NCBI GenBank assembly: GCA_964017155.1
Contig: OZ024860.1
Coordinates: forward strand, 50,900,858-50,964,857
Source of the DNA: Oasisia sp. SBJ-2009
Lineage: Eukaryota; Annelida; Polychaeta; Sabellida; Siboglinidae
Reading direction: 5' to 3'
DNA length: 64,000 bases
Shown here one piece after another: positions 1 to 23,500 of the stretch. A program made the translations under genes and the position numbers. Each line of letters opens with the position of its first letter. Position 1 is the stretch's first letter. The notes beneath the pieces were generated by a model. The model did not search any database. It was given only the letters and a program-made list of their open reading frames with translations, and was not told the origin of the DNA.

Positions 1-86
1 GGGCATCTACATGACTCACCTCACTGAGGGCATCTACATGACTCACCTCACTGAGGGCATCTACATGACTCACCTCTCTCATCTTG
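1..86 (-). repeat. 27-bp minisatellite made of the CNOT7 exon 5 splice donor
   Basis: About 2.7 copies of a 27-bp unit, running off the left edge. On the minus strand exon 5 ends KMRE then GTGAGT at 73-68; each further unit again ends CAGTGAG and is followed by GTGAGT. The donor is therefore present three times in 73 bases. The unit is 9 codons long, has no stop (VSHVDALSE) and is in phase with exon 5, so use of a downstream donor would insert multiples of nine residues without a frameshift. The true copy number is unknown because the array is cut by the window edge. Confidence 0.85.
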
Positions 87-3000
87 AAGAAGGTGCAGCC
101 TGTGAGGAGACTGTCACTGCCAGCCTGGTGCTGGGGCCCAACTCGCTTTATCTGAATCACAACAGTGGTTGATGCACTCGGACCATTCAGCATGAAACCT
201 GCCAGTCTACTCCTTCTTGTTATAATGTTCTTGTGGCACTGAACTTATGGAACACCCTACCCAAAGTATGCACAGTTGTAAACTTGTAACAGTGTCAGAC
301 AGTGTTTGTAAGAGCAAACTAATGACTTACTATTTTTCTATAATACAAAAGTAATTAAAAAAAATTACTGATATAAATAGTTTTAACCTGTCATATAAAT
401 ACTTAACTGATGCCTGAAATTGTTAACTTTACTCTAAGCAGATTTTTCCAATATAAGGTTTTTCATTTAAAATTGTTTTTCCTAGTTGCACGGACAACAT
501 TCCGTGCCACAGAGCTGGGTGATAAAGTGCTACGGAGGTGGGGTGATAAAGTGCTACAGAGGTGGGGTGATAAAGTGCTACGGAGGTGGGGTGATAAAGT
601 GCCACAGAGATGGGGTGATAAAGTGCTACGGAGGTGGGGTGATAAAGTGCTACAGAGGTGGGGTGATAAAGTGCTACAGAGGTGGGGTGATAAAGTGCTA
701 CAGAGGTGGGGTGATAAAGTGCCACAGAGGTGGGGTGATAAAGTGCTACAGAGGTGGGGTGATAAAGTGCCACAGAGGTGGGGTGATAAAGTGCTACTGA
801 GGTGGGGTGATAAAGTGCTACAGAGCTGGGTGATAAAGTGCTACTGAGGTGGGGTGATAAAGTGCCACAGAGGTGGGGTGATAAAGTGCTACTGAGGTGG
901 GGTGATAAAGTGCTACAGAGGTGGGGTGATAAAGTGCCACAGAGGTGGGGTGATAAAGTGCTACAGAGGTGGGGTGATAAAGTGCCACAGAGGTGGGGTG
1001 ATAAAGTGCTACAGAGGTGGGGTGATAAAGTGCTACAGAGGTGGGGTGATAAAGTGCTACAGAGGTGGGGTGATAAAGTGCCACAGAGGTGGGGTGATAA
1101 AGTGCTACAGAGGTGGGGTGATAAAGTGCTACAGAGCTGGGTGATAAAGTGCTACTGAGGTGGGGTGATAAAGTGCCACAGAGGTGGGGTGATAAAGTGC
1201 TACTGAGGTGGGGTGATAAAGTGCTACAGAGCTGGGTGATAAAGTGCTACTGAGGTGGGGTGATAAAGTGCCACAGAGGTGGGGTGATAAAGTGCTACTG
1301 AGGTGGGGTGATAAAGTGCCACAGAGGTGGGGTGATAAAGTGTTACTGAGGTGGGGTGATAAAGTGCCACAGAGGTGGGTGATAAAGTGCCACAGAGGTG
1401 GGGTGATAAAGTGCTACAGAGGTGGGGTGATAAAGTGCTACTGAGGTGGGGTGATAAAGTGCTACAGAGGTGGGGTGATAAAGTGCTACAGAGGTGGGGT
1501 GATAAAGTGCCACAGAGGTGGGGTGATAAAGTGCTACAGAGGTGGGGTGATAAAGTGCTACAGAGGTGGGGTGATAAAGTGCTACTGAGGTGGGGTGATA
1601 AAGTGCCACAGAGGTGGGGTGATAAAGTGCCACAGAGGTGGGGTGATAAAGTGCTACAGAGGTGGGGTGATAAAGTGCTACTGAGGTGGGGTGATAAAGT
1701 GCTACAGAGCTGGGTGATAAAGTGCTACTGAGGTGGGGTGATAAAGTGCCACAGAGGTGGGGTGATAAAGTGCTACTGAGGTGGGGTGATAAAGTGCTAC
1801 TGAGGTGGGGTGATAAAGTGCCACAGAGGTGGGGTGATAAAGTGCTACTGAGGTGGGGTGATAAAGTGCTACAGAGCTGGGTGATAAAGTGCTACTGAGG
1901 TGGGGTGATAAAGTGCCACAGAGGTGGGGTGATAAAGTGCCACAGAGGTGGGGTGATAAAGTGCCACAGAGGTGGGGTGATAAAGTGCTACAGAGGTGGG
2001 GTGATAAAGTGCTACTGAGGTGGGGTGATAAAGTGCTACAGAGCTGGGTGATAAAGTGCTACTGAGGTGGGGTGATAAAGTGCCACAGAGGTGGGGTGAT
2101 AAAGTGCTACTGAGGTGGGGTGATAAAGTGCTACTGAGGTGGGGTGATAAAGTGCCACAGAGGTGGGGTGATAAAGTGCTACTGAGGTGGGGTGATAAAG
2201 TGCTACAGAGCTGGGTGATAAAGTGCTACTGAGGTGGGGTGATAAAGTGCCACAGAGGTGGGTGATAAAGTGCTACAGAGGTGGGGTGATAAAGTGCCAC
2301 AGAGGTGGGGTGATAAAGTGCTACAGAGGTGGGGTGATAAAGTGCTACAGAGGTGGGTGATAAAGTGCTACTGAGGTGGGGTGATAAAGTGCCACAGAGG
2401 TGGGCTGATAAAGTGCCACAGAGGTGGGGTGATAAAGTGCTACAGAGGTGGGGTGATAAAGTGCTACAGAGGTGGGGTGATAAAGTGCTACAGAGGTGGG
2501 GTGATAAAGTGCCACAGAGGTGGGGTGATAAAGTGCTACAGAGGTGGGGTGATAAAGTGCTACAGAGGTGGGGTGATAAAGTGCTACAGAGGTGGGGTGA
2601 TAAAGTGCCACAGAGGTGGGGTGATAAAGTGCCACAGAGGTGGGGTGATAAAGTGCTACAGAGGTGGGGTGATAAAGTGCTACAGAGGTGGGGTGATAAA
2701 GTGCCACAGAGGTGGGGTGATAAAGTGCTACAGAGGTGGGGTGATAAAGTGCTACAGAGGTGGGGTGATAAAGTGCTACTGAGGTGGGGTGATAAAGTGC
2801 CACAGAGGTGGGGTGATAAAGTGCTACTGAGGTGGGGTGATAAAGTGCCACAGAGGTGGGGTGATAAAGTGCCACAGAGGTGGGGTGATAAAGTGCTACA
2901 GAGGTGGGGTGATAAAGTGCCACAGAGGTGGGGTGATAAAGTGCTACAGAGGTGGGGTGATAAAGTGCTACAGAGGTGGGGTGATAAAGTGCTACAGAGG

Positions 3001-6000
3001 TGGGGTGATAAAGTGCCACAGAGGTGGGGTGATAAAGTGCTACAGAGGTGGGGTGATAAAGTGCCACAGAGGTGGGGTGATAAAGTGCTACTGAGGTGGG
3101 GTGATAAAGTGCTACAGAGGTGGGGTGATCAAGTGCTACAGAGGTGGGGTGATAAAGTGCCACAGAGGTGGGGTGATAAAGTGCCACAGAGGTGGGGTGA
3201 TAAAGTGCCACAGAGGTGGGGTGATAAAGTGCTACAGAGGTGGGGTGATAAAGTGCTACAGAGGTGGGGTGATAAAGTGCTACAGAGCTGGGTGATAAAG
3301 TGCTACTGAGGTGGGGTGATAAAGTGCTACTGAGGTGGGGTGATAAAGTGCTACGGAGGTGGGGTGATAAAGTGCTACGGAGGTGGGGTGATAAAGTGCT
3401 ACTGAGGTGGGGTGATAAAGTGCTACAGAGGTGGGGTAATAAAGTGCTACAGAGGTGGGGTGATAAAGTGCTACTGAGGTGGGGTGATAAAGTGCTACTG
3501 AGGTGGGGTGATAAAGTGCCACAGAGGTGGGGTGATAAAGTGCTACAGAGGTGGGGTGATAAAGTGCTACAGAGGTGGGGTGATAAAGTGCTACAGAGGT
3601 GGGGTGATAAAGTGCTACAGAGGTGGGGTGATAAAGTGCCACAGAGGTGGGGTGATAAAGTGCTACAGAGGTGGGGTGATAAAGTGCTACTGAGGTGGGG
3701 TGATAAAGTGCCACAGAGGTGGGGTGATAAAGTGCCACAGAGGTGGGGTGATAAAGTGCTACTGAGGTGGGGTGATAAAGTGCTACAGAGGTGGGGTGAT
3801 AAAGTGCTACTGAGGTGGGGTGATAAAGTGCCACAGAGGTGGGGTGATAAAGTGCCACAGAGGTGGGGTGATAAAGTGCTACAGAGGTGGGGTGATAAAG
3901 TGCTACTGAGGTGGGGTGATAAAGTGCTACAGAGCTGGGTGATAAAGTGCTACTGAGGTGGGGTGATAAAGTGCCACAGAGGTGGGGTGATAAAGTGCTA
4001 CTGAGGTGGGGTGATAAAGTGCTACTGAGGTGGGGTGATAAAGTGCCACAGAGGTGGGGTGATAAAGTGCTACTGAGGTGGGGTGATAAAGTGCTACAGA
4101 GCTGGGTGATAAAGTGCTACTGAGGTGGGGTGATAAAGTGCCACAGAGGTGGGGTGATAAAGTGCCACAGAGGTGGGGTGATAAAGTGCCACAGAGGTGG
4201 GGTGATAAAGTGCTACAGAGGTGGGGTGATAAAGTGCTACTGAGGTGGGGTGATAAAGTGCTACAGAGCTGGGCGATAAAGTGCTACTGAGGTGGGGTGA
4301 TAAAGTGCCACAGAGGTGGGGTGATAAAGTGCTACTGAGGTGGGGTGATAAAGTGCTACTGAGGTGGGGTGATAAAGTGCCACAGAGGTGGGGTGATAAA
4401 GTGCTACTGAGGTGGGGTGATAAAGTGCTACAGAGCTGGGTGATAAAGTGCTACTGAGGTGGGGTGATAAAGTGCCACAGAGGTGGGTGATAAAGTGCTA
4501 CAGAGGTGGGGTGATAAAGTGCCACAGAGGTGGGGTGATAAAGTGCTACAGAGGTGGGGTGATAAAGTGCTACAGAGGTGGGTGATAAAGTGCTACTGAG
4601 GTGGGGTGATAAAGTGCCACAGAGGTGGGGTGATAAAGTGCCACAGAGGTGGGGTGATAAAGTGCTACAGAGGTGGGGTGATAAAGTGCTACAGAGGTGG
4701 GGTGATAAAGTGCTACAGAGGTGGGGTGATAAAGTGCCACAGAGGTGGGGTGATAAAGTGCTACAGAGGTGGGGTGATAAAGTGCTACAGAGGTGGGGTG
4801 ATAAAGTGCTACAGAGGTGGGGTGATAAAGTGCCACAGAGGTGGGGTGATAAAGTGCCACAGAGGTGGGGTGATAAAGTGCTACAGAGGTGGGGTGATAA
4901 AGTGCTACAGAGGTGGGGTGATAAAGTGCCACAGAGGTGGGGTGATAAAGTGCTACAGAGGTGGGGTGATAAAGTGCTACAGAGGTGGGGTGATAAAGTG
5001 CTACTGAGGTGGGGTGATAAAGTGCCACAGAGGTGGGGTGATAAAGTGCTACTGAGGTGGGGTGATAAAGTGCCACAGAGGTGGGGTGATAAAGTGCTAC
5101 AGAGGTGGGGTGATAAAGTGCCACAGAGGTGGGGTGATAAAGTGCTACAGAGGTGGGGTGATAAAGTGCCACAGAGGTGGGGTGATAAAGTGCTACAGAG
5201 GTGGGGTGATAAAGTGCCACAGAGGTGGGGTGATAAAGTGCTACAGAGGTGGGGTGATAAAGTGCCACAGAGGTGGGGTGATAAAGTGCTACTGAGGTGG
5301 GGTGATAAAGTGCTACAGAGGTGGGGTGATCAAGTGCTACAGAGGTGGGGTGATAAAGTGCCACAGAGGTGGGGTGATAAAGTGCCACAGAGGTGGGGTG
5401 ATAAAGTGCCACAGAGGTGGGGTGATAAAGTGCTACAGAGGTGGGGTGATAAAGTGCTACAGAGGTGGGGTGATAAAGTGCTACAGAGCTGGGTGATAAA
5501 GTGCTACTGAGGTGGGGTGATAAAGTGCTACTGAGGTGGGGTGATAAAGTGCTACGGAGGTGGGGTGATAAAGTGCTACGGAGGTGGGGTGATAAAGTGC
5601 TACTGAGGTGGGGTGATAAAGTGCTACAGAGGTGGGGTGATAAAGTGCTACAGAGGTGGGGTGATAAAGTGCTACTGAGGTGGGGTGATAAAGTGCTACT
5701 GAGGTGGGGTGATAAAGTGCCACAGAGGTGGGGTGATAAAGTGCTACAGAGGTGGGGTGATAAAGTGCTACAGAGGTGGGGTGATAAAGTGCTACAGAGG
5801 TGGGGTGATAAAGTGCTACAGAGGTGGGGTGATAAAGTGCCACAGAGGTGGGGTGATAAAGTGCTACAGAGGTGGGGTGATAAAGTGCTACAGAGGTGGG
5901 GTGATAAAGTGCTACTGAGGTGGGGTGATAAAGTGCCACAGAGGTGGGGTGATAAAGTGCCACAGAGGTGGGGTGATAAAGTGCTACTGAGGTGGGGTGA

Positions 6001-9000
6001 TAAAGTGCTACAGAGGTGGGGTGATAAAGTGTTACTGAGGTGGGGTGATAAAGTGCTACAGAGGTGGGGTGATAAAGTGCTACTGAGGTGGGGTGATAAA
6101 GTGCCACAGAGGTGGGGTGATAAAGTGTTACTGAGGTGGGGTGATAAAGTGTTACTGAGGTGGGGTGATAAAGTGCTACTGAGGTGGGGTGATAAAGTGC
6201 TACAGAGGTGGGGTGATAAAGTGCTACTGAGGTGGGGTGATAAAGTGCCACAGAGGTGGGGTGATATAGTGTTACTGAGGTGGGGTGATAAAGTGCCACA
6301 GAGGTGGGGTGATAAAGTGCTACAGAGGTGGGGTGATAAAGTGCTACAGAGGTGGGGTGATAAAGTGCCACAGAGGTGGGGTGATAAAGTGCTACAGAGC
6401 TGGGGTGATAAAGTGCTACAGAGGTGGGGTGATAAAGTGCCACAGAGGTGGGGTGATAAAGTGTTACTGAGGTGGGGTGATAAAGTGCCACAGAGGTGGG
6501 GTGATAAAGTGCTACAGAGGTGGGGTGATAAAGTGCTACAGAGGTGGGGTGATAAAGTGCTACAGAGGTGGGGTGATAAAGTGCTACTGAGGTGGGGTGA
6601 TAAAGTGCTACAGAGGTGGGGTGATAAAGTGTTACTGAGGTGGGGTGATAAAGTGCTACTGAGGTGGGGTGATAAAGTGCCACAGAGGTGGGGTGATAAA
6701 GTGTTACTGAGGTGGGGTGATAAAGTGCTACAGAGGTGGGGTGATAAAGTGTTACTGAGGTGGGGTGATAAAGTGCTACTGAGGTGGGGTGATAAAGTGC
6801 CACAGAGGTGGGGTGATAAAGTGCCACAGAGGTGGGGTGATAAAGTGCTACATAGGTGGGGTGATAAAGTGCTACAGAGGTGGGGTGATAAAGTGTTACT
6901 GAGGTGGGGTGATAAAGTGCTACAGAGGTGGGGTGATAAAGTGCTACTGAGGTGGGGTGTTAAAGTGCCACAGAGGTGGGGTGATAAAGTGTTACTGAGG
7001 TGGGGTGATAAAGTGTTACTGAGGTGGGGTGATAAAGTGCCACAGAGGTGGGTGATAAAGTGCTACAGAGGTGGGGTGATAAAGTGCTACTGAGGTGGGG
7101 TGATAAAGTGCTACTGAGGTGGGGTGATAAAGTGCCACAGAGGTGGGTGATAAAGTGCTACAGAGGTGGGTGATAAAGTGCTACTGAGGTGGGGTGATAA
7201 AGTGCCACAGAGGTGGGTGATAAAGTGCCACAGAGGTGGGGTGATAAAGTGCTACAGAGGTGGGGTGATAAAGTGCTACAGAGCTGGGTGATAAAGTGCC
7301 ACAGAGGTGGGGTGATAAAGTGCTACAGAGGTGGGTGATAAAGTGCTACTGAGGTGGGGTGATAAAGTGCTACAGAGGTGGGGTGATAAAGTGCTACGGA
7401 GGTGGGGTGATAAAGTGCTACTGAGGTGGGGTGATAAAGTGCTACTGAGGTGGGGTGATAAAGTGCTACAGAGGTGGGGTGATAAAGTGCTACAGAGGTG
7501 GGGTGATAAAGTGCTACGGAGGTGGGGTGATAAAGTGCCACGGAGGTGGGGTGATAAAGTGCTGCCAGTAATCAAGGTCACTCAGTGACCTTCTGGCAGT
7601 GGCACTGACCTCCAGCTGGTCCGCGACCTCCTGTAGGCCCCCCTTTAGGTTCTTGCAACTCTTCATGAGGTACTTGACGTCGTAGATGTTGGGGAAGAAG
7701 ATCTTGAGCAGCTCGAAGAAGTCCTGCTCCTCTGGTGGCAGTCTCACACACGTCAGTAGCTTGAGCATGTAGCCAAAGTCATAACCACTGCAAATGACGC
7801 CATCATCTCTCATCACACGGCTAATTACTGTGGTCTTACACAGCAAATGTCACAAAAACTGTTGTTATCAGGAAAGAACTATTTGAGCAAAATTGGCACC
7901 AAGATATAATTATACAATTTTTAACAGATTATAAAATAAAAAACAGACAGTTCAAATAAAAAACTTGGCAAGAGTGCAAATGACATATTTAGCACAATTG
8001 AGTTAACATCACAATCACACATTCTGGACCATGTTCCACCATGTCACACGTTTAGTGGTTAGTCGCTAGAAATGACAAGGCAGAAGGGGCAAGTGACAAC
8101 GGAATGGCATTTTACATTGATAAAATGAGGTAAGTGAAATGTTCAATGGCATTACGTGTTTTACAACAAAATATCCAGTCATTGCGCATAATAAAATGAC
8201 AAAAGGAAGTAAGTGACAGTAAGTCCACAAATACTGCATAGAACCCGGAATACTGACTATTCACATAAATATATATAGAGAAGTAGTAGTTTATGCAGAT
8301 GTATACAATTGCCGAGTCATAATATGCAAATGAAAAACACTTTTCGTCCGATACCTCAAAAGCACCTGGTTCTCACTCGCACCATTTAGACCCTGCACAA
8401 CAGTGTAGCACATCAACATAATTAACTGCAACTTTTTTAATGGAAACATTAAAATAACCCGATCAAATTAGTGACATCTCAAGAAGATTAAATAAAATAA
8501 TATTTATAAGTCACCACTCCCATCGTTGTTGCACCTGGCAGGCAATTAATACTACTGTCACACAGCTCTAACAGCCAACTGTAGACCTCCAAGCTAACCT
8601 ATGGAATGAAATCCACTTGACGTTTTCGCTGAGAACAATCCCAGAAGTCATCAGCAGCTCGGCGAAGTCGTTCACCTCAATCCCGTCCTCCTCATGTCGA
8701 TGAAACTGAATGCCACATTTTGTGAGCATGTTGATGGAGTCCTGTGCATACATGTCATTCCTGCAACAGACGTATTCACTATTAGAAACACTCAATCGTT
8801 TCACAAGCAAAATGAGACATCTAATATATTTTTCACAATGCAATCCATGCTGAACATACCAAGTTGACTTCTTTGAACAGAGTGACAGAAACTAAAATGA
8901 TGTCCAGTAATCATAAACTAGGATTTATAAATAATATTAGTAATAGCTTGGGTTATCATGTCACAGGTGGTACAAATAATTGTTAGTCTCGAAAGACGCC

Positions 9001-12000
9001 GGCAAAAACAACAATGTACAGTGTAGTGCCATATCTAGATATTATAACTGATCAAAGCCCTTTACATGTTCAATCGAATACTATCTTAGCTTCTCTGGGA
9101 AACATCCAGCCTGGCAGCAATTAATGTGTGAAGACTACTCAAACACAAATATCCACCACTGTCTATGGATTGTTCATACGTCTGAGTGAATTCACCCAAC
9201 TGCAGGATTCGAACCTGGGTTCTCTCAGTTGAGAGTGCAATGTTTACTCACTGCGCTAGAGCACATTGCAATCAAACAACACAGCTTTCTGAATGACATT
9301 GAGCAGGTGTTATTACGTAGTCATGTTGTTGTTGATTTCTCACTTGGACAAATTTCATTTGGAATGTTAACTGAGGGTCTACTTAACCTGATACATTTAG
9401 CCAAGGTGATCATTATGATACATATTCTTACCCTAGACTGAAGCGAAAGTTGAACTGCCAGGTGGACACGGGGCGTGCCAGTTTCCCATTCTCATCAGAG
9501 AAAGTGAAACCAATCTGGATGATCTTCAACAGGTCGACGTTACAGCGCAGTAGTTGGTACTGAAAGTCTGTCGTACTACGAAACTCTCCAATTGGCCGTG
9601 CAACGACACCGGGGAACTCTGTGTCCTGTAATCAATGTAGCCGTAGTTACAACATTGAAGAAACTGACTATTATTTATTTTAAAATCACAGACAGTACAA
9701 TAACTGCTGGAAAAATGGTAAATTTATATATTATATTTTAAATACATAACATTGCATACCATTAAAATGACAATATTGGCATGCTTCAGGTATGCTCGAT
9801 ATACAAGTAAATGAGAATACATAAGCACAATGACATCATTTCCATAAGCACAATGCCACTGACATTACCCAAAACTGGTTAATTTGTTCATAATAGTTTT
9901 TCCTGTCACAATGTTCTTTTGTCTCTTATTTTAAAATAACAACTATAGAGTAAAACACACACATATTCAAGCAGATGAAACAATAATATAATTTGTTCAA
10001 GTCCTCTACAGAATATTAGTGACCGTTTGCACAGGTTTTGTTTCATAGGTTGTCACATATTTGCTGCTCAATTGCCAGGTAAAAGCTTTGGCCAGTGAAG
10101 TTTGCCTGAAAGGCTGTATCCAATATGGACTTTATTCATTGTGCTTTTGTCCATGAATTTTTTTTTCAACAGGATTGTTTGTCAGGCATTCAGAAGAAAA
10201 GACTAATTCAGGCCACGTTCGACCCAGTCGTTCATGAGTTGTTGATGACTCGGCTTGAACAGTCATTTGGTATCACCAATAAGGTGCATACGTGGTTGAG
10301 ATCTTACATCAGTGAGTGGAATCAGATGGTGGTAGTGGGAAGTGTCGAGTCGGGTGGTTCACTCTTGGCATGTGGCGTCCCACAGGGGTTGGTGCTAGGG
10401 TCTATCTTATACTCTATGTACAAAGCCGATTGGAGGAATTGTTGCTAGACATGGCATGAACAATCACTGTTATGCTGACGACCTTCAGATATACCTGACT
10501 GTTGATTGAGATTAATCACTTGTGGCGCCACCTGCTGGGGTAGAATTGTATTTTGCTGAAGTGGCAGCCTGGCTGACAAAAGAACAAGTTAACATGGAGA
10601 AATCTGAGGTGATAATTATATACCATGCTATACATTTTTAGATATATTTCGTATGATTCTATGTACATTTTACTGTAATGTGTGTACGCGCCTATGAACG
10701 GGCTGGTCCCGGAGATATGGCGCTTTATAAATGCTTGTAATAATAATAATAATAATAAATTTTTTCCTTGGCAAAAAATCACAACAGCTTGCTGAGTTGT
10801 ACATTACAGTAGCCAGCCATCAAATTCAATCTTCATCGTGTATGTGCAGTCAGGGTGTGATATTTGAGGATGAGCTGCAGATTGCTAACATTGTGAAGGT
10901 AGATTAGAAACGTTGGGCGAATTTGCCCACATCTGACAAATGAATCGTGTGAAATACTTCTTCTTGCACTAGTGAATCCTGCTTAGACTATGACAACCCA
11001 CTCTCTATGGCCTACCAAACAACACGATGCAACGCCTGCAAAGAGTGCAGAATTGTGTCGCTTGTATATTACGTGTACGAGGATATACGATCATATCACA
11101 CCTGGATTGCAGCGGTTACACTGGCTCCAGTTCATCCAGACCGACCTATTTACCTACTGTGCATTGAATGGGCTAGCTCCGGACTACTACTGAGTTAATC
11201 AGCTACGGACACATAAACACAACTCTAGGATCTGTCTCGCAGCCTCCCCTCTTGTTTGTACTGGACTCACAAACTGTCACACAATGTGATCACCGTTTCG
11301 CGGTCTGCTCGGCAGTTCTGTGGAACAGTCTACCTCCTACACTCGGGACAGCCGCAACAGTGCAAAGGTTTTAAGTACTCTTTTCAAGACCCATCTCTTC
11401 AAGCAAGCTTTTTTGTTATTTAACTGATGAGGACACTTAACTTTTTATCAATTGATTTTGTGTTTCATTTGATTGCATTTAACTATATGTAAAGTACTTT
11501 TACTTTACTTTTAATTTGTTTTTCTATTTATCAATAATTTTATCTGAACATTTTTAGAGACTGTATTTTAGGTATATTTTATGCATCGTTTTAGTGTTTT
11601 TTTTTTATTTATTGCAATTTGTATCGGGCACTATATAAGTATTTTATTATTATTATTATCATTAAAAAACGAAAGCATGGCTTTATTAAAATTGTGCAAA
11701 TAAAAATACAGGGGAATAGTAGGGAGGACTCAAAAGATGACACATAATGTTAGGTAGGAAATCAAACTGTGTTATTTGACCCCAGAAGTGGCAAAAAAAT
11801 GATATTGAAAACTGATTCATACTGAAGTGGAGAGGTCACTAAGTTAAAAAAATTGTCAAGTAGGAAAATTCTCAGGTGAGAGTTTGGTCTGACGGTGGTT
11901 TGTCCATTCTGAATTGTGAGCATCATTTGTGGAGGCTTTGTTGTGAATTCACATTTCACACTCCATAAGCATCAGCCTGAACCATGTACCATAGCGACAT

Positions 12001-12640
12001 ATGGGTACTTGAGGACAACCACGTACCATAGCGACATATGGGTACTTGAGGACAACCACGTACCATAGCGACATATGGGTACTTGAGGACAACCACGTAC
12101 CACGGCGACATATGGGTACTTGAGGACAATATGTTGTACGTACCATGGCGACATATGGGTACTTGAGGACAATATGTTGTACATACCATAGCGACATATG
12201 GATACTTGAGGACAATATGTTGTACATACTATAGCGACATATGGGTACTTGAGGACGTGGGGTGTTGTACATACCATAGCGACATATGGGTACTTGAGGA
12301 CAATATGTTGTACGTACCATGGCTACATATGGGTACTTGAGGACAATATGTTGTACATACCATGGCGACATATGGGTACTTGAGGACAACATGTTGTACG
12401 TACCATAGCGACATATGGGTACTTGAGGACAATATGTTGTACATACCATAGCGACATATGGGTACTTGAGGACAATATGTTGTACATACCATAGCGACAT
12501 ATGGGTACTTGAGGACGATGTGTCGTATCTTCTTGAACTCCTGCTCCATGTTGGAACACCAGATGTCCTGGATCCCGTACTCGGGCACGGACGTTGCCCC
12601 CGGCATGGCGAGTCACTGCTGGTGACGTCCTCAGGTGTGT
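74..12640 (-). CDS. CNOT7: CCR4-NOT deadenylase subunit 7/8 (CAF1), partial: last exon off left edge
   Basis: Catalytic CAF1 subunit of the CCR4-NOT complex, a DEDD-type 3'-5' exoribonuclease that shortens mRNA poly(A) tails. Five coding exons are visible on the minus strand: 12606-12490 (start ATG; acceptor before a short 5'UTR part at 12640), 9625-9432, 8760-8599, 7787-7610 and 151-74. All junctions are GT-AG and the phases join without a break, giving 243 codons; vertebrate CNOT7 is about 285, so a final exon lies left of base 1. The catalytic residues fall at the family positions: D40 and E42 (start of exon 2, DTEFPG), D161 (SGYDFGY), H225 and D230 (QHQAGSD, exon 5). Further hallmarks are NDMYAQDSI and FFPNIYDVKYLMKSCKNLKG. 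Exon 1 and exon 5 each end in a minisatellite that repeats the splice donor. CNOT7 and CNOT8 cannot be told apart here; synteny with VPS37A favours CNOT7. Confidence 0.95.
154..505. other. 3' part of CNOT7 intron 4, unique sequence
   Basis: Single-copy AT-rich intron sequence between the exon 5 acceptor (CAG at 154-152 on the minus strand) and the start of the 24-bp array. I see no other gene or element in it. Confidence 0.6.
506..7563. repeat. 7-kb 24-bp minisatellite in CNOT7 intron 4
   Basis: About 290 head-to-tail copies of a 24-bp unit with core GGGGTGATAAAGTGC. Most differences are at two sites (GCTACAGA, GCCACAGA, GCTACTGA, GCTACGGA). A 23-bp variant (GAGCTGGGTGATAAAG, one G missing) recurs at irregular spacing and shows a higher-order structure, including a roughly 2.2-kb duplicated block. 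The array stops about 45 bp into the intron from the CNOT7 exon 4 donor (GTCAGT at 7609-7604). Long open frames on both strands are by-products of the stop-free 24-bp unit and are not called as genes. Confidence 0.95.
7563..7604. promoter_or_regulatory. Imperfect hairpin with inverted AGGTCA half-sites
   Basis: Between the 24-bp array and the exon 4 donor lies AAGGTCACTCAGTGACCTT, a near-perfect palindrome, flanked by GCCAG and CTGGC that can also pair. AGGTCA-5-TGACCT is the half-site arrangement of some nuclear-receptor elements. On RNA it would form a stem right behind the 5' splice site. Whether it acts as a protein site, an RNA hairpin or neither is unknown. Confidence 0.3.
7788..8598. 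other. CNOT7 intron 3, no further feature
   Basis: AT-rich single-copy intron between exon 4 (7787) and exon 3 (8599). No repeat array, RNA gene or second reading frame recognised. Confidence 0.6.
9080..9265 (-). mobile_element. tRNA-derived SINE in CNOT7 intron 2
   Basis: On the minus strand, CTAGCGCAGTGAGTAAAC resembles an RNA polymerase III A box and GGTTCGAATCC is a perfect B box, spaced as in a tRNA head. A non-tRNA body follows. There is no cloverleaf good enough for a functional tRNA. SINE family not assigned. Confidence 0.65.
10125..11670 (+). mobile_element. Decayed CR1/L2-like LINE with a nested second LINE/SINE tail
   Basis: Broken pieces of a non-LTR reverse transcriptase in CNOT7 intron 1, opposite to the gene. 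Fragments in order: KVHTWLRSYISEWNQ and CGVPQGLVLGSILYSMY (10,290-10,430), then after a frameshift HCYADDLQIYLTVD (YADD catalytic box, about 10,466-10,505), AAWLTKEQVNMEKSEV, GVIFEDELQI (about 10,860), and HITPGLQRLHWL with NGLAPDYY near the C-terminus. The 3' end is ACTATATAAGTATTTT followed by an ATT microsatellite at 11,631-11,665, typical of CR1/L2 elements. At about 10,620-10,760 a separate tail ending in (ATA)n interrupts the frame, so another truncated element inserted into this copy. Multiple stops make it inactive. Confidence 0.8.
11980..12515 (-). repeat. 37/43-bp minisatellite spanning the CNOT7 exon 1/intron 1 junction
   Basis: Thirteen copies, the first being the coding end of exon 1 (HIVLKYPYVAM, matching the conserved CNOT7 sequence). 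The real donor is GTATGT at 12489-12484. Each copy repeats about 30 bases of exon (TACCCATATGTCGCTATG) plus a donor: GTATGTAC or GTACGTAC in the 43-bp units, GTACGTGG in the 37-bp units near 11,990-12,100. Copy starts on the plus strand are about 12489, 12446, 12403, 12360, 12317, 12274, 12229, 12186, 12143, 12100, 12063, 12026 and 11990. Both unit lengths are 1 mod 3, so only every third downstream donor restores frame. Confidence 0.9.
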
Positions 12641-14522
12641 CTGGAACCAGAAACAACAACTTTAATGACGACTTGTGTCTGGACTTAATTATAAGATACA
12701 CTGTGTTTAAAAGAAGGCGTGACCCATTTCAGGGTAATAGTTGATACTAGTTTTCTCCAGAAACCAGCATCCACTCGCAATGTTCAGACCAGCTCTGGCT
12801 GGAGCAAACAACGGAGGCGCACAAGAGGTCATCCACAAACAGGTGGCGAAGTGACCTCCAGAAACTGTGGCGACTGTTGTTGACGGCCCATGCCCCAGGA
12901 GGGACGGTGGGTGTAAGTAACTAAGTAGGGCACTGTTGTTGAATCTGGATCAGTCATTGCAACTATGTTATTACATAAATTTGATACCTCAGTACATTAG
13001 TTCCGTTACACACGGTCATCTCATGCATATTTACATGGAAACATTGTGTCTCAGCGCATGTCTGAGGATCAGAGAGTGACCTGATTTGCATCAACTTACT
13101 GCGCACAACAAACACTGCCATATCTCCCACTGATGCTGATTTAGCACGGACTAGTGCAAGTTGAGCCTCTCTTTGGGCTTTAAAAAGGCGCCAAGATGCA
13201 ATGTTTTTTCATAACTTAAATATGGAGCCCTCGGGGTTTATGCTGAATGACGGAACTAATGCACTGAGACAATCAAATCTATGCAAAAGTAATTATAATG
13301 GCCCTGCTTTAAATTACTGTAAGATACTCAACAAACAGTGGGCTAAAGACTGGTTCATCCTCCCATAAAAAAATGACCAAAATACACTCTCAAGATTGGA
13401 AACAAAATTCAGTTACACAGCAACAGTTCAGACTTGGAAAACAATAAGCACTTGCCTAAAATTCCCATAACAACAGTAACATGATGGTGATGAAATTGAG
13501 ATGGATCCAGATTCAACAAATGTATTGAAGGGTATTCAGTTCTATTAAAAAAAATTCACTTCAACAATAACAAGAACGGTTGGCATTTGTGTAGAATCCG
13601 GACTCACCTCAATTTTGCTGTTATGTCTGTACAAGTGTCTACTTTTTATACTTCATTGCGTTAATTCAATCATTAATATTCTTAGGTATATTTATATTTT
13701 ACAAATATTGCGCCTTAGACATATTTGGAGACCCAAATAGCAGTCAGATCTGTGCCAGCTGCAACTCAAGTACAGCAGCCATGCATTACAGCATTGTGCA
13801 TTTGGAATGAACATTAGCGAGTTTGTCTTGCAGAGTTGCCGACTGAATTGTCTTTTCGGTCTAAAAAGTGCACTAATACGCATTATCTATAAACGAAGGC
13901 CATGGGCATTTGTTTTTTAAACAACATGTGTGGCCGTGGGTGGGATGATGTTGAATGATTGAATTACGGAGGCCATTGAAATAACGAAATGAGGTATCAA
14001 ATGTAGGCAAAGACTGTCATAACACCAAAATTGAGGTGGGTTCGAATTTTACGCAACTGCAGAACAATGTTTGTGGTACCCGGCTTCGCCTAGGAATATT
14101 ATTAGGCTTCACACCAGACCCGAGACCGTCGTTCACGGTTCAGTCCCTTGTTCTTGCCTTCTTGTTTAGAATTTGAAGTACATTTCAATCAGATTCTTTG
14201 TCATCAACCCTCGTTCAAATGTCAAGTAATAAGTGTCATATTTAACTACCGCTACGTATATGTAACGACGCTAGTTACCTGATTACACGATCAATTCTAC
14301 GAATTTATAAAACATAAAACGCCTTTTCTTGCGGGCAAGAAGCACTTGCTGATTTGGCTTCCGGGACATTGCTCGAATGTACGCAAAATTGTATGACGTC
14401 ACATGCACAAGGATCGATTACGTTCAGCACATTTCCTGTTTTAGATCGTCACTGTGTCTATAAACTGTTGGGGTATATTTCCTTTTTACTGATTAATGTG
14501 TTTTTAAAATATGTTTTCATGG
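12641..14522. promoter_or_regulatory. CNOT7/VPS37A head-to-head upstream region
   Basis: Space between the CNOT7 5'UTR acceptor (12640, minus) and the VPS37A start (14523, plus). It must hold the CNOT7 first exon and the shared promoter. The likely core is 14,000-14,400, which is less AT-rich and has CpG-containing stretches, but I see no definite TATA box or start site. A MITE occupies 13,583-14,056. Head-to-head arrangement of these two genes is also known in vertebrates. Confidence 0.6.
13583..14056. mobile_element. MITE copy 1, terminal inverted repeats of about 40 bp
   Basis: Left end GTAGAATCCGGACTCACCTC (from about 13,590) is the inverse of right end GAGGTGGGTTCGAATTTTAC (to about 14,052); both arms continue through CAATTTTG and a TGTTATG motif. 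It is about 470 bp and encodes no protein. A second, shorter copy with the same ends lies at 32,227-32,522, and a shared internal block (GAGACCCAAATAG, TGTGCCAGC) is present in opposite orientation. Superfamily not assigned; target duplication not clear. Confidence 0.7.
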
Positions 14523-17500
14523 ATGTCAGGACGTTCAGCGGAAAGTAATCTTCCGCCGCCAACTGCTTTACAAGCCCAGAGGGAAGCTCAAATTCAGCAA
14601 TTGAAAATATTTAACCAAAAGTGAGTAAAACGAAAGATGTGACAGCGACTGACAGAACTTCTGACAGGTCTGTAGTGGAAACCGTTTGACTCGTACATTA
14701 TTGACATCTTATGACGTGAGTCATTACCCGAATTGTGTGTCATGCGATTCTATATACGATTGTCACTGTCCACAGATGTGCTTTGCTAATAGTGTCACAT
14801 TTTATTAAGCAACCCAAATGAATGATCGAGAACCGTTTTATTAGCTCTTACAGACTTACTCTTAGACTTAGTCTCTTAGAAATTATATCTAGGCATTCTA
14901 GCTACTTACAGTTACAGTTACATACGTGTCTTAAAAAAGACTTAATTACTTTCCATCATATTCATAAATGACATTAATAATGACATGTTGCACTTGTAAG
15001 TAAACCGTTGGCGTTGAGTGAATTTGTCATTAATTGTGTACAGTTATTTGTTTACTAACTGCAGTAGCATAAATCTCCCAAACTCTGCCTATTTTACAAG
15101 TCCAAAACTGGCCAAAGCTGAGCACCAATGATATATTAAACTAACAGCTAGTGGCTACTGCTGTTGTTATTGCATCATGAGCATTGCTTGTAGTGTTTCA
15201 GAAATACAGAGAGATGTTGAATACTTGGTCAAATGTACAATCAATGCAACAACCATTTCACTGCACATGTAAGTACACTCTATAGTCTGTAGTATGTTGG
15301 ACACAGATTGTTTGATTCCCTCTACTTCGTAATTGTTACTAATTTATTATTGTAGTCGTTGTGTGCGTGGAATTGTTTTAGGATATCTAATAACAAGACA
15401 TGTTTTATTGACTATAAATGAAAGGCTGGAACAAATCAAATTGGACTTAATAACCTATTGCATTTCCCATTGACTTGCAAATGTGTAATGCATTGATCTG
15501 CTCTGGAAGACAATCTTCTTCGGTCCTGTTAATATTAGAATACTGTTTGTTGCTGTTTGCAGAACATTACCCCCGGACTTTCCTCAGGAGAAGCCGACGG
15601 TGACAGTGACACCCCCTCTCACCCACCCCTGGGTCAACGACCACATGCATGTCACGGGATGTCCAGGAGTCAACAATGTATGTTTCTTTCACGGGATGTT
15701 ACTGTATGTTAATGTGCTCCAGCAAGTATCTAGACAGATGTTACTTGTCAACTTATCAAAATTCTGAGTGAAATTAATATACTATTGATTACTTTGGACT
15801 GGTATTAAGCAGATTTTTATAGGTTTCTTTATGGTATGATGATAATTTAAAGATAATGTTTTTTTTTGTTTATCTAATTAGTTAATTTATTATTTTTAAA
15901 GCAAAGCATATTGAATATTTGTAATGTGATTTGGTGCTGTATAAGTATATTCATTTAAGTTTTATTTATGATGATATTCTACTTTATATGCGCAATTATG
16001 TTGCTTACTTTTGCTGAAATCATTGGGAATATTACTATTAAGTAACATTAGATTAATTTTTTTCTGACCAAATTAAAAATGAGAAGAAATGGAGATGAAT
16101 AACCTACCTATATATATATCATAACATAAAGTATTCAAACTTTGCAGGTTAGTACTCAAAGTAAATAGTTGATGATTTCTGCAGATGTGTGCATTGTTTT
16201 AATAAACTGTGTATGCCTAGTTGCCCAAAACCTGTTTTCAAGTGGGACAGAGTATGAACTATTTGCTGTGAATGGTTTGTAGTTCATGGTTCATTCAGAC
16301 CTTGGTAAAGTGATAAGGGAAATTGTGGAAGAGTTTCGCAGGATATCACCTGTCTTACACGCTCAACACACTATGTGAGTACCTTCTGATATCTCCTGTC
16401 TTACACGCTCAACACACTATGTGAGTACCTTCTGATATCACCTGTCTTACACGCTCAACACAATATGTGAGTACCTTCTGATATCACCTGTCTTACACGC
16501 TCAACACACTATGTGAGTACCTTCTGATATCACCTGTCTTACATGCTCAACACACTATGTGAGTACCTTCTGATATCACCTGTCTTACACGCTCAACACA
16601 CTATGTGAGTACCTTCTGATATCACCTGTCTTACATGCTCAACACACTATGTGAGTACCTTCTGATATCACCTGTCTTACACGCTCAACACACTATGTGA
16701 GTACCTTCTGATATCACCTGTCTTACATGCTCAACACACTATGTGAGTACCTTCTGATATCACCTGTCTTACACGCTCAACACACTATGTGAGTACCTTC
16801 TGATATCACCTGTCTTACACGCTCAACACACTATGTGAGTACCTTCTGATATCACCTGTCTTACACGCTCAACACACTATGTGAGTACCTTCTGATATCA
16901 CCTATCTTAAACACTCAACACACTATGTGAGTACCTTCTGATATCACCTGTCTTACACGCTCAACACACTATGTGAGTACCTTCTGATATCACCTATCTT
17001 AAACACTCAACACACTATGTGAGTACCTTCTGATATCACCTGTCTTACACGCTCAACACACTATGTGAGTACCTTCTGATATCACCTATCTTAAACACTC
17101 AACACACTATGTGAGTACCTTCTGATATCACCTGTCTTACATGCTCAACACACTAAGTGAGTACCTTCTGATATCACCTGTCTTACATGCTCAACACACT
17201 AAGTGAGTACCTTCTGATATCACCTGTCTTACACGCTCAACACACTATGTGAGTACCTTCTGATATCACCTGTCTTACACACTCAACACACTATGTGAGT
17301 ACCTTCTGATATCACCTGTCTTACACGCTCAACACACTATGTGAGTAGACTGAGTACCTTCTGATATCACCTGTCTTACAAGCTCAGCACACTATGTGAG
17401 TAGACTGAGTACCTGTGATATCACCTGTCTTACATGCTCAGCACACTATGTGAGTACCTTCTGATATCACCTGTCTTACACGCTCAGCACATTATGTGAG

Positions 17501-20500
17501 TACCCTCTGTTACTTCCAACACTTCTTCAGGTACACATCGTCTTTTCACTGTCCTGCTAACACTCACCCATTGTACGTAGTAATAAAGTAATTTATATAA
17601 AACTTGAATCAATTTCACAGAGGTTCCATATTCAATCTATGAAGCGCACTTGCCCTAATAAGCATACACCCCATTTTAACACCTGACACTGTGACAAGGA
17701 TCTCCAAAGCCAACAAGATTGTCTGGTGATTCATCAACAATTACAATTTAATTTCTACCAATGTCACACTGGATTCAAAGCTCAGTTTTGACAGAAGATG
17801 AAACATTCCACTTAAATATTATACAAATATGAGTAGCTATTTCTCATATCAACTGCTTGTCAATCATGTGTCTTCTGAGGACTGTAAATGTGCACTGCCG
17901 TCTGCTGGCCTGTGTCATGCGTCATCACATTTTGACACATTTTTGCATCTCAAATGTCTTGTAAGCTTTCTGTATGATTTATAGAACTAATACGACGTGT
18001 ATGATATTGTGACATGTTTCTTTCTAGATGCTTTTCATCTCAGATGTGACATCTACTTCTTACAAGTTCATTACAAGCTGACACCTGAAATGCAATGTCC
18101 TCTCAATGATTGGTCCCACACACAGCTTTCATATTATAATAAGATGTTATGATAATATATGGTAATATAGTTCTATAAGGTAATATAGTTTCATTCCGCC
18201 GGCATCTAAAAACCTATCTCTTTAATGCTGCCTATCCTCCTTAGCCTCCTAGCTTCTTCATCCATCCGTTGACGACTCACGCATTGCTTTCGATTATGAG
18301 ATTGATTAATCCCCTGGTTTTGTCGCGCCACTGAGCTTGATTTTCGAGGATATTGGCGCAAAAGAAGTTACTATTATTATTATAACCAAAAGCCATACAA
18401 TTCTTCTGCCGCCGAAAACTGCAGCATACTAAAAGTAACTGCATTAAACAAAAGTGCAGTTTCTGTTCAACTGCATCTTCTTGTTCCTTTGTTTACAGCC
18501 CCGTCAGTAGATATGCTTCGCCGTCACGCCTGGCCGACTTCCCAATTACAGGTGTTCCTTCAGGGTACCAGGGGTTCACGAAGCCTAGCCAGGTAATTCT
18601 TCTGTCAGGCCAGGTTACCAGCCCTGGTGTCTTTATTAAGGGATCATGGCCTTCAATCTCCCACTTGTTTTGGGGCCAGTCTGCTATCCATTTTGGATGT
18701 CCATTTTGGACACCATTTTTTTCTGGTCTGTTTTAGGTGCAAACACCCCATATTTCATGGGTCACCCTGCCATCTCCCACCCACTTGTCAGCCCCCACTC
18801 CCACCTATTCTGGGCTACACTTGTCTTGGTCTCCAAGGAAATAGGCAAAAAAGAAAGTACCTCAATTGTGTTTATCTCCCACTATATCTAAACCTACTAT
18901 CTCCACTCATTCCCATAATTTTTTTTGCGTTTCTAACTAATTGTTGGAAAAAGTGAAGCTATCCAGTATAGAATATAATATCCTAATTCATTGGTGGATA
19001 TGTGCTAGTTCGTTTTGTAGAAATGAATAGCATCAGTGGACAGTGGTTCTGGGCAACTAATTGTATGTGCAACTATATGTAATCAGGTGTCTGTCACATG
19101 ACTTGACAAAACGAACTGGTAATAAGTTGCAAACGTATCAAATAAAGTTTTGTATCTTCTCGAATTTCACAGATCGTTAGCTTTGAAATGTTACCTCATT
19201 GGTTGAAATATCGTGAGTATATAGTTTTAGAATTATTGCTGAAATTAAAGCAGATTTGTCAAAGAAACTTAAGAAAGAAAGTCATATGAACTCAAATTGA
19301 TCATTGATCTTATGAGTTCATAGGTGCATGGATTTTGGTAGTTTGGGATTGTTGTTAAAATGACAACATTGATCAGACATGACCTGGACAGTTATGTTTG
19401 GCTCGTGTACAGAACAGACCTGACCACTTTAATACCTTAATGCTGTGCCAGGTCTGATGTGTCTCAGTGACTGTGATTGGTTGCCTGTTTGTCTAGTTGG
19501 CGGGGCCGTCAGACAGCACACACAGCGCCCTCTATGGACTCAATGTTGCCGCAGAGTTCCCGCAACTGCACAATATGAGGTAATTTCCTGTTTTCGAACC
19601 AACCACTTCTCCCTTTTCCTGGAGCTTGTCGTCTGATGCCCTGTGGACATGTGACGCTTGGACACAGGGCAGTAAAGACAGGTCTGGCAGAAGGCTTTTA
19701 GATATTGACCAAGTACGAAAATATTGACACAAGTATTTGTTGTCAATTAAAAAAATCAATGTTATCATGGACCTTTAGCAAATGCAGTGTTTTCAACAAC
19801 AAAAAAGACGCAAGTATAAGAGGGAGATTTATTGCAAACTTTAATTCTTGTTGGACCGTTGCTACATGTTGGACCGTTGCTACATGTTGGACCGTTGCTA
19901 CGTGTTGAACTGTTGCTACGTGTTGAACTGTTGCTACATGTTGAACTGTTGCTACGTGTTGAACTGTTGCTACGTGTTGAACTGTTGCTACATGTTGAAC
20001 TGTTGCTACGTGTTGAACTGTTGCTACGTGTTGAACTGTTGCTACGTGTTGAACTGTTGCTACGTGTTGAACTGTTGCTACGTGTTGAACTGTTGCTACG
20101 TGTTGAACTGTTGCTACGTGTTGAACTGTTGCTACGTGTTGAACCGTTGCTACGTGTTGGACCGTTGCTACGTGTTGAACTGTTGCTACGTGTTGAACTG
20201 TTGCTACGTGTTGAACTGTTGCTACGTGTTGAACTGTTGCTACGTGTTGAACTGTTGCTACGTGTTGAACTGTTGCTACGTGTTGAACTGTTGCTACGTG
20301 TTGGACCGTTGCTACGTGTTGAACTGTTGCTACGTGTTGAACTGTTGCTACATGTTGAACTGTTGCTACATGTTGCAGTGTGCAGGAGCTGAGAGATCTG
20401 TCAGAGGACGAACACGGACAACTGGACCTTGTGAGCCACCTGCCAGACATAATGCAACTAACTGCAACTAGGGCTGACCTCATTGGGAGGAATGAAGAAC

Positions 20501-23500
20501 TAGCAAGTGAGTGCTGTGAGGCGTAGTGGAGATTATGCAACTCACATTGACTCGCTCTTTTGGCATTTTAAAACATTTGCTTTACCAACTAGTTATTTTT
20601 AAAGACATTCAGTGCTATAGATGTTGAAATACAATGTTACCACATGGGTGCTGTCGAAATGAAACTGCCATTGGCTTTCATGGTAACTGTACAAAATTAA
20701 AGGACAAAAAGTTAACTGTTTCGTGGCATACACCTAATAGAGTTAATATAAAGTAACAATTTCCACATATACTCAATTTTTTAACGCCAGCGGTTTACCA
20801 GAAAAACACCCAGCCATCCAAATACTATGCGCTACCCCATCTTAGACGAAGAATGACGTCACGACGGTGATCGAGGCGCTCTCCACGTAGATTCCCTGCA
20901 TGGGGTTTGGCTGTTGTCATGAAATGGCTGCAACTCGGCAACGCGCGTAACATGCTGATGACTTTAAATATAACGTTATCTATTATTGTTATCGCTGAAA
21001 TCATCCCATCAACTGATGATACATGTCTACATCAAAGCATTTCTCCTCAAAATGGACCGAGCAAAGTGAACTGTACTTGGACTGGAGGGATTCCAAACAG
21101 TACGCCCGCAAATCACCAATGTGAATCCATTGCTTCAATACTACCGGTTATTTCAACTATTATTGCAACCGTATGCTGAACACGAAGGCATAATTACTAA
21201 AGTTTACCATAGATTTAACCACAGATTTAGATATACGTCTATAAGCAGCTGCTAGATGTCACGCCAACTGAACGAACTGTCGAAGATTCGAAGTTGTTGA
21301 CCCTTAACAACGTCGCAGGAAGCTGACCGGCTTCAGCAGAGATATAGAATGCCGCGCGCTGAATGGCCAAGCCAAGTTAATCCTTCACCTATGGCGGCGT
21401 CTAGACCATCGTGGATTTTGTTAGAATTTTAGACTTTAAAGTCACATTCTGAGTAAACGGCTGATGTTAAAAAAATTTGTATATGTGGAAATTGTTACTT
21501 TGTATAAACTCTATTAGGTGTATGACACGAAACCGTAGCCTGTTTTGTCCTTTAAGTACATGAGGTACATGTCGTACATGTAGTACAGCTGTAGCCTGTT
21601 TTCATGGAATTATGAACTTATTAAGTAGTCCATTCTCCCACCCAGCATATCATCAATTCATGAATATTTGCAGATAATTACTGCTTTGTGTTGAAATTTG
21701 GGCTGGTAGAGGCTTACCCATGTAGCTATAGCCTGACAATGGGTTCTAGAGTACACACACACACGCACACACGCACGCACACACACGCCTGTGTTAGTAT
21801 GTTGTTGTGTGTCAGTTAGAGCTCTGGTGTAGCAGGTCTGTCATAGGAAGTCACTACAATGTATGACCAGATTTCAGGAGAGACAATTACTAATATGTAG
21901 TTGTGTGTTGTTGTTTTTTTTTTTCAGGAGAAAATCTCTCAAAGAAACCCATTTTTGAGGAAAGAAAGAAATGTGTGTTAGAAAAGGTATTTGCTCTGTT
22001 TTATTGACAGACTTTTCTGATGTAAAATTCTAAACTTTCTGGCAGCTGCTAATCACAGGCTCTGTATGTTCCACTTCATGGACTGAACACATTTTGATGG
22101 CTGGATAACTGTAGTAAAGTTTATCTTATATTTTTATTAATTAAATGTATTCTTACATTTGTGATTTTTATATGTACATTAGTTGTAACCTGACTGAAGT
22201 CTTCCATTTGTAGCTGGGGAGTCTACGTGTTTTGAATGAGTGAACCACTCTGTAGCTCTAAACTTGACTACATCATGTATAGTCATCACATATATATATG
22301 TACATATATATTTTTTGGTAGCTGGTAGTTTATAATTATTACCTATTTACACATACAATAGTTTTTTTATGTATTTTACTTGTTATAATTGCAGGTTTAA
22401 CATTAACAGTTGAACTGTGCACACAGATGTGACGACATGACACAGGGTTCTGTGATGACATGACACAGGGTTCTGTGGTGACATGACACAGGGTTCTGTG
22501 GTGACATGACACAGGGTTCTGTGGTGACATGACACAGGGTTCTGTGGTGACATGACACAGGGTTATGTGATGACATGACACAGGGTTCTGTGGTGACATG
22601 ACACAGGGTTCTGTGGTGACATGACACAGGGTTCTGTGGTGACATGACACAGGGTTCTGTGGTGACATGACACAGGGTTATGTGATGACATGACACAGGG
22701 TTCTGTGGTGACATGACACAGGGTTCCGTGGCGACATGACACAGGGTTCTGTGATGACATGACACAGGGTTCTGTGGTGACATGACACAGGGTTCTGTGA
22801 TGACATGACACAGGGTTCTGTGACGACATGACACAGGGTTCTGTGATGACATGACACAGGGTTCTGTGACGACATGACACAGGGTTCTGTGGTGACATGA
22901 CACAGGGTTCTGTGACGACATGACACAGGGTTCTGTGGTGACATGACACAGGGTTCTGTGGTGACATGACACAGGGTTCTGTGGTGACATGACACATGGT
23001 TCTGTGGTGACGCTGCCGTCATTGACGCGTGGTTGTGAATGGTTTCAGTTTGAGGCCCTCAACGACCTCCGGCGTCAGTTTGACGAGCACTCGCGGAGAC
23101 AGGAGGCGTTGAGGAGGGAGCTGGGTGTGGGGCACCTTGAGGACGTCCTGCGCGTGGGGACAGTGGAGGCCGACGAGGCAGCGGAGGCCGTCGCAGAGTC
23201 CTTCCTGGACAGTGAGTGCGGTCACTGTCAACAGACGGCCTCAGGGCTGTCACATGTGGTCATCTCTTATCAGGGTTTTCAAGTGTCTGTGAGCTACCAG
23301 GCTGGCTGCCAAGACCTGCTGTTGTGTCAAAGCTGATAGGACGTATTTAGTTTCTGTGTGCTGAGGGGAAGGTGGGAGGTCGTAACCAACATAAGGTAGG
23401 GGGTCCTACCCAAGATATGGTAGGGGGTCCTAACCAACATAAGGTAGGGGGTCCTAACCAACATAAGGTAGGGGGTCCTACCCAAGATATGGTAGGGGGT

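Follow-up and report, generated by a model that had tools for sequence, protein, structure and literature searches.

Tandem arrays that span or closely approach splice sites were found in CNOT7 and VPS37A, two adjacent genes in a 64-kb stretch of contig OZ024860.1 (assembly GCA_964017155.1, positions 50,900,858 to 50,964,857 of the forward strand), which is called the window here and to which all unlabelled positions refer. With a probability of about 0.75, these arrays are minisatellites of the type called mirages in amphioxus, which were duplicated at an intron boundary and expanded while the exon-proximal site was kept as the working splice site. The unusual feature is the position of the arrays within introns, not the donor-word content of their units. 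Results from a small sample suggest that array placement is non-uniform near both intron ends, and the favoured explanation is that arrays arise or persist preferentially beside either intron end, rather than through an aim at the donor. The placement test and the symmetry of donors and acceptors are what this analysis adds to the published mirages.

Tandem Repeats Finder (TRF) was run on the window and its flanks (20 kb on the left, 40 kb on the right), a sequence with 5,001 N bases in total. On the minus strand, a 27-bp array at the donor of CNOT7 exon 5 occupied positions 1..76 and extended to -633 (26.3 copies), and a 43-bp array at the donor of CNOT7 exon 1 occupied positions 11986..12527 (13 copies), with its edge 38 nt into the exon. 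On the plus strand, the donor of VPS37A exon 4 (16375) carried a 46-bp array of 25 copies, which covered positions 16342..17509 and reached 33 nt into the exon. TRF thus recovered all three arrays that an earlier note on this DNA had described with units of 27, 43/37 and 46 bp; the 37-bp units were seen by eye at the left end of the CNOT7 exon 1 array.

For each array, the first six copies were compared with the real donor to establish their register. The 43-bp unit of CNOT7 exon 1 contained 30–34 nt of the exon end followed by GTATGT or GTACGT, and the 46-bp unit of VPS37A exon 4 contained 35 nt of the exon end followed by GTGAGT. The 27-bp unit of CNOT7 exon 5 carried GAG/GTGAGT (the slash marks the exon/intron junction). 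Because its exon-derived part was just 0–8 nt, this unit is nearly all intronic and starts at the donor. The proposal that the units consist of a coding exon end plus its donor therefore stands for CNOT7 exon 1 and VPS37A exon 4 and is marginal for CNOT7 exon 5, while the TRF results and register alignments support three separate arrays of alike architecture. Counted by motif over the whole arrays, donor-like copies numbered 9 for CNOT7 exon 1, 25 for CNOT7 exon 5 (exact GAG/GTGAGT) and 25 for VPS37A exon 4.

Gene models were assembled by manual splicing and then translated; the exon calls are likewise manual and made at the sequence level. CNOT7 is on the minus strand and has six coding exons, the last of which lies to the left of the window. 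Its coding exon 1 spans 12490..12606, with 12489 as the first base of the donor, and its exon 5 spans 74..151, with 73 as the first intron base and the first array copy as the donor. The joined CNOT7 protein, which is highly conserved, aligned with human CNOT7 (4gmj_B, E 1.4e-133) without gaps at the exon 1 and exon 5 junctions. VPS37A exon 4 is on the plus strand at 16283..16374. Residues 18 to 145 of VPS37A aligned with the human protein (8e22_X, E 2.5e-26), and this alignment passes the exon 4/5 junction at about residue 135, in its last part, where the match is weak. Since both spliced proteins align with human proteins, the exon ends on which the earlier note relied are supported by homology. 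Splicing from the first donor yielded conserved proteins, as judged from the models and their alignments or domain matches.

To escape the selection made by the earlier note, a second block (C1:20.0–20.2 Mb) was chosen on another contig without prior inspection; 20 kb of it reads N. TRF identified 25 arrays in this block. Its exons were obtained from a codon log-odds scan, and the models were a MYO1D-like myosin I gene (MYO1), PSMD11 and an ADAM gene, with names assigned by reading. Visual inspection was used to set the distal ends of the ADAM introns and the YIPF5 exons of the window. One PSMD11 exon was not found, and that intron end is provisional. In Pfam comparisons, Myosin_head matched the first two MYO1 pieces, the 54361 junction included, PCI matched PSMD11 and Disintegrin matched ADAM. 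The first five modelled MYO1 exons aligned continuously with myosin Ib across the 41646 junction. The MYO1 tail match scored 26.9 bits, below the Pfam cut-off of 31.1, and because it starts downstream of the 63103 junction, the support for that junction is its reading frame.

Similar to CNOT7 and VPS37A, the C1 genes contained donor-touching arrays, at MYO1 54361, MYO1 63103 and an ADAM-like exon (176239). The 50-bp array at the ADAM-like exon (C1 block 173981-176274) contained 46 copies of CAG/GTGAGT with 36–40 exonic nt, and one end of its intron lies outside the model. No Pfam match was found for this exon, which was called from its reading frame and a prodomain reading. Acceptor-side arrays were found at MYO1 41646 (4 nt), PSMD11 7432 (10 nt) and ADAM 160213 (10 nt). 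The MYO1 exon at 41646-41699 of the C1 block (L019) is 54 nt long, its acceptor junction lies 4 nt past the array, and a GC donor (GCAAGT) follows it. In the window and C1 together, all 6 arrays that touch a donor carried copies of it in register with the genuine site, and units of three of these six (CNOT7 exon 1, VPS37A exon 4 and the ADAM-like exon) included 30–40 exonic nt.

These arrangements suggest how such arrays may form. A segment over the intron boundary, sometimes with 30–40 nt of exon, would be duplicated in tandem, and ordinary slippage or unequal exchange would then multiply the copies and keep them alike. The working splice site would be the copy that adjoins the full exon, the first donor presumably being the one used, and the remaining copies would be intronic and removed along with the intron. 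A dispersed element as the source of the VPS37A unit was rejected: a 92-nt VPS37A query against the 764-Mb assembly (33 contigs), with very common words skipped, gave 12 matches, all within its own array. A general enrichment of donor words in array units was also rejected, as only 2 of 42 arrays reached p<0.05 against shuffles, which is about chance. The CNOT7 exon 5 array was one of the two.

For the placement test, each array was placed uniformly within its own intron, and the distance from its edge to the splice site was compared with this null. The thresholds of 12, 25 and 50 nt were chosen post hoc, when the distances were already known. The array filters were a period of 14–100, at least 3.5 copies and a score of at least 150 for the window region, and a period of 10–200, at least 2.8 copies and a score of at least 120 for C1. 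In CNOT7, VPS37A, RPL9 and YIPF5, 20 introns were modelled, and nine of them contained 10 arrays. Three of these arrays span donors, one begins 46 nt past a donor, four end 3, 20, 21 and 37 nt upstream of an acceptor and two are free (157 and 417 nt). In C1, 15 of the 25 arrays (14 after two neighbours were merged) lie in introns modelled at both ends and were tested; the ADAM-like donor array was among the 10 left out. The last modelled VPS37A exon is without homology support, which bears on the counts at ≤25 and ≤50 nt only.

Within 12 nt of a splice site, 4 of 10 arrays were found in the window (0.41 expected, P 3.7e-4), 5 of 14 in C1 (0.63 expected, P 1.6e-4) and 9 of 24 in both (1.03 expected, P 1.4e-7). 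Without the three arrays named in the earlier note, 6 of 21 arrays remained within this distance in the two regions (P 1.8e-4). At ≤50 nt, 5 of the 7 other window arrays were close to a splice site (P 1.7e-3, or 9.4e-3 when the second CNOT7 intron 5 array was confined to the space beside the first). A placement comparison of the kind that the earlier note had proposed was positive in this small sample, the blind C1 block included.

These counts bear on the possibility that tandem duplication is uniform, that the arrays seen are survivors tolerated by splicing, and that their link to splice sites reflects chance and hand-picked examples. Arrays fill about one third of the 119-kb region (39,374 bases), and therefore some contact with exon ends is expected by chance. 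Moreover, the window had been selected for this very feature, and two chaperonin (CCT) genes lacked a long array. Under uniform placement, however, about one of the 24 arrays should fall within 12 nt of a splice site, against 9 observed, and the blind block departed from uniformity on its own. Selection against exonic arrays, likewise, would not predict crowding at intron ends. This explanation is unlikely.

Several observations weigh against a boundary origin or against the placement result. The sample is small, with 24 arrays from two regions of one assembly, one region having been selected by the earlier note. Once the three named arrays are set aside, the window by itself shows no significant excess at ≤12 nt (1 of 7, P 0.28). 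C1 alone was weaker at ≤50 nt (6 of 14 vs 2.49 expected, P 1.5e-2), and its MYO1 exon at 41646 had been noticed through the flank of the array; if it is ignored, the C1 count at ≤12 nt becomes 4 of 14 (P 1.7e-3). Little or no exon sequence is present in the units of three donor arrays, namely that of CNOT7 exon 5 and both of MYO1. The first copies of the MYO1 donor arrays matched the real donor at 15 and 13 of 22 positions, and register was lost in some copies. In the two CCT genes (L035 and L036), a control chosen by family, no array with at least 3 copies and a period of at least 10 bp was found. As a separate observation, a 26-bp repeat occurs in 2.8 copies at an apparent acceptor of CCT gene L036 (4589-4663) and is perhaps a very young acceptor-side repeat.

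The earlier note had attributed the arrays to a mutational process directed to 5' splice sites, such as R-loop or replication slippage at exon ends. Arrays at donors were indeed more frequent than expected at ≤12 nt (5 of 24 vs 0.51 expected, P 1.1e-4), and a donor stood in register within the units of all six donor cases. However, arrays lay at acceptors about as often, with 4 of 24 arrays at ≤12 nt (P 1.4e-3), 6 arrays vs 5 for donors at ≤25 nt and 7 vs 7 at ≤50 nt, which argues against specific targeting of the 5' splice site. The lack of a general enrichment of donor words in array units also speaks against it. Such targeting is thus quite unlikely, and this part of the earlier proposal is not sustained.

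The 7 arrays within 50 nt of an acceptor all stop short of it, by 3, 4, 10, 10, 20, 21 and 37 nt. They include three plus-strand arrays of VPS37A: an 18-bp array (19849..20375) that ends 3 nt before exon 7 (20379-20506), a 23-bp array (22434..23011) that ends 37 nt before exon 9 (23049-23211) and a 47-bp array (25786..26249) that ends 21 nt before the last modelled exon, which starts at 26271. These distances, and the likeness of the two intron ends, are what would be predicted if arrays arose anywhere in an intron and deletion of unique DNA moved them up to the splice signals, where any further deletion would be lethal and the approach would halt. Such a ratchet, however, offers no route to units in which 30–40 exonic nt stand in register with the genuine donor, and as a general explanation it is improbable. 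The short stops would also fit selection against use of an upstream copied AG. The published BflGb6 repeat of an amphioxus globin contains exon 2 sequence, as far as the consulted part of its source goes; it differs in this from the acceptor arrays found here and is an exception to the copied-AG idea. An absence of AG from the units was rejected as a general feature of acceptor arrays, since just 3 of the 7 arrays lacked AG in the last 150 nt. The 18-bp array at VPS37A exon 7 has no AG within 150 nt upstream of the acceptor's own AG.

The repeated donors might also be used to produce protein variants, such as a growing (VSHVDALSE)n insert for CNOT7 exon 5. The CNOT7 exon 5 array is in frame with its exon and open across the 26 unit lengths read (window 1-76 and L010 9224-9933), and the CNOT7 exon 1 array is open for 86 codons on read-through. 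In contrast, read-through met a stop after 1 codon in VPS37A and within 17 codons, in any phase, at the ADAM-like exon. In addition, CNOT7 is highly conserved, and an open 27-bp unit is not improbable. Use of the donor copies is therefore very improbable as an explanation for the arrays, and protein-coding use of array copies is unlikely.

Mirages are tandem repeats across exon/intron boundaries of amphioxus genes, as described in the consulted parts of PMC3087553 and PMC3902484, which confirms what the earlier note said of amphioxus Adh minisatellites of this name. The loci given there are Adh3, the globins BflGb6 and BflGb9, troponin C (TnC) and PGBD5, and both 5' and 3' boundaries are involved. 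Regular mRNA was reported for Adh3, a globin and TnC despite the mirages (PMC3087553, PMC3902484). For CNOT7 and VPS37A, the conserved protein sequence over the junctions gives indirect support for normal mRNA. Publications on this class date back to 2002, according to the reference list of PMC3087553, so calling the arrays the strongest candidate for an unusual system was an overstatement. Similar to mirages, the repeats at CNOT7 exon 1, VPS37A exon 4 and the ADAM-like exon span the exon/intron boundary (marginally so at CNOT7 exon 5), and their copies carry splice signals. The units of 43, 27 and 46 bp are within the reported range, which was 10–72 bp for Adh3 and about 150–160 bp for the globins in the part of PMC3087553 consulted. 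The copy numbers differ, with 13–26 in the three arrays of the window and up to 46 in the C1 block.

In amphioxus VCBP3, introns contain copies of all or part of adjacent exons, and some of these copies have canonical splice sites (PMC2632668, consulted in part). Similar to the arrays described here, these are exon-derived intronic copies with splice sites, but in the part consulted they were not termed mirages and no repeat structure was given. In the same source, the density of repeats on each scaffold of the amphioxus genome was obtained with TRF, with no comparison to splice sites in the part consulted, and no survey of repeats against splice sites was found in the open-licence amphioxus minisatellite papers, as far as their consulted parts go. 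Tandem duplication of AG/GT proto-splice sites has been proposed as a route to intron gain (Rogers; Zhuo 2007; Gao and Lynch 2009, as cited in the consulted part of PMC3087553). There too a segment with splice signals is duplicated, but the arrays found here lie within introns between conserved exons, and no new intron was seen. Introner elements are dispersed related repeats linked to splice sites at several loci. They resemble the present arrays in that repeat DNA is tied to splice sites at several loci; however, the units found here vary among genes, and that of VPS37A, the sole one searched, was confined to its own array.

Amphioxus carries GFP-family genes, of which only two are known in Asymmetron. 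As a check of this cephalochordate trait, two first-look candidates for the GFP family (PF01353) were scored and none reached E ≤ 0.001, which is a weak negative and does not establish absence. The GC content was 43.0% in the window and 40.4% in the C1 stretch, near the cephalochordate values in the consulted part of PMC9956151 (Asymmetron lucayanum, about 40%; Branchiostoma floridae, 42%). Should the host fall outside the cephalochordates, the presence of mirages beyond that group would be a larger finding.

The cited papers described mirages gene by gene, whereas a small sample suggests here that arrays crowd at both ends of introns. If this crowding is true, an annotated genome with RNA reads could be used to measure minisatellite birth, and the choice of the spliceosome for the first among 25–46 near-identical donors, some sharing 30–40 nt of exon context, would become measurable. 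We hold it tentatively, at somewhat less than even confidence, that birth or survival of minisatellites is tied to both intron ends genome-wide and that a large share of intronic minisatellites is anchored at splice sites. Such a tie would mean a genome-wide mutational or survival bias and splicing that routinely picks one donor among dozens. It would also bear on proposals that boundary repeats feed intron gain. Gene models in such genomes may mistake array copies for exons.

The remaining CNOT7 exons, all on the minus strand, were modelled at 9432..9625 (exon 2), 8599..8760 (exon 3) and 7610..7787 (exon 4). Most of CNOT7 intron 4 is occupied by a 24-bp array of 295 copies (504..7563), and 46 nt separate its edge from the donor of exon 4. 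On visual inspection, this array may contain a recurring stretch of about 2.2 kb, as a rare GATC variant is seen near 3128 and again near 5330. In CNOT7 intron 1, broken reverse-transcriptase-like frames at 10160-11640 looked by eye like a decayed long interspersed nuclear element (LINE). Stretches resembling tRNA, with a B-box-like GGTTCGAATCC, were also noticed by eye at 9180-9260 and 29340-29640 and may be short interspersed nuclear elements (SINEs).

RPL9 was modelled at 27118-30942 on the minus strand, and the first exons of YIPF5 were placed by eye from about 32957 on the plus strand. The 40 kb to the right of the window yielded no further YIPF5 exon, and thus intron 3 seems to exceed 60 kb. 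This intron (36525-64000 and rightward) contains many of the arrays of the window, which stand outside the placement test because it extends past the sequence examined. A 44-bp unit at 52850-54564, on the minus strand of this long intron, reads ATTACAG ... CTGAG/GTACGT and thus carries both acceptor-like and donor-like signals.

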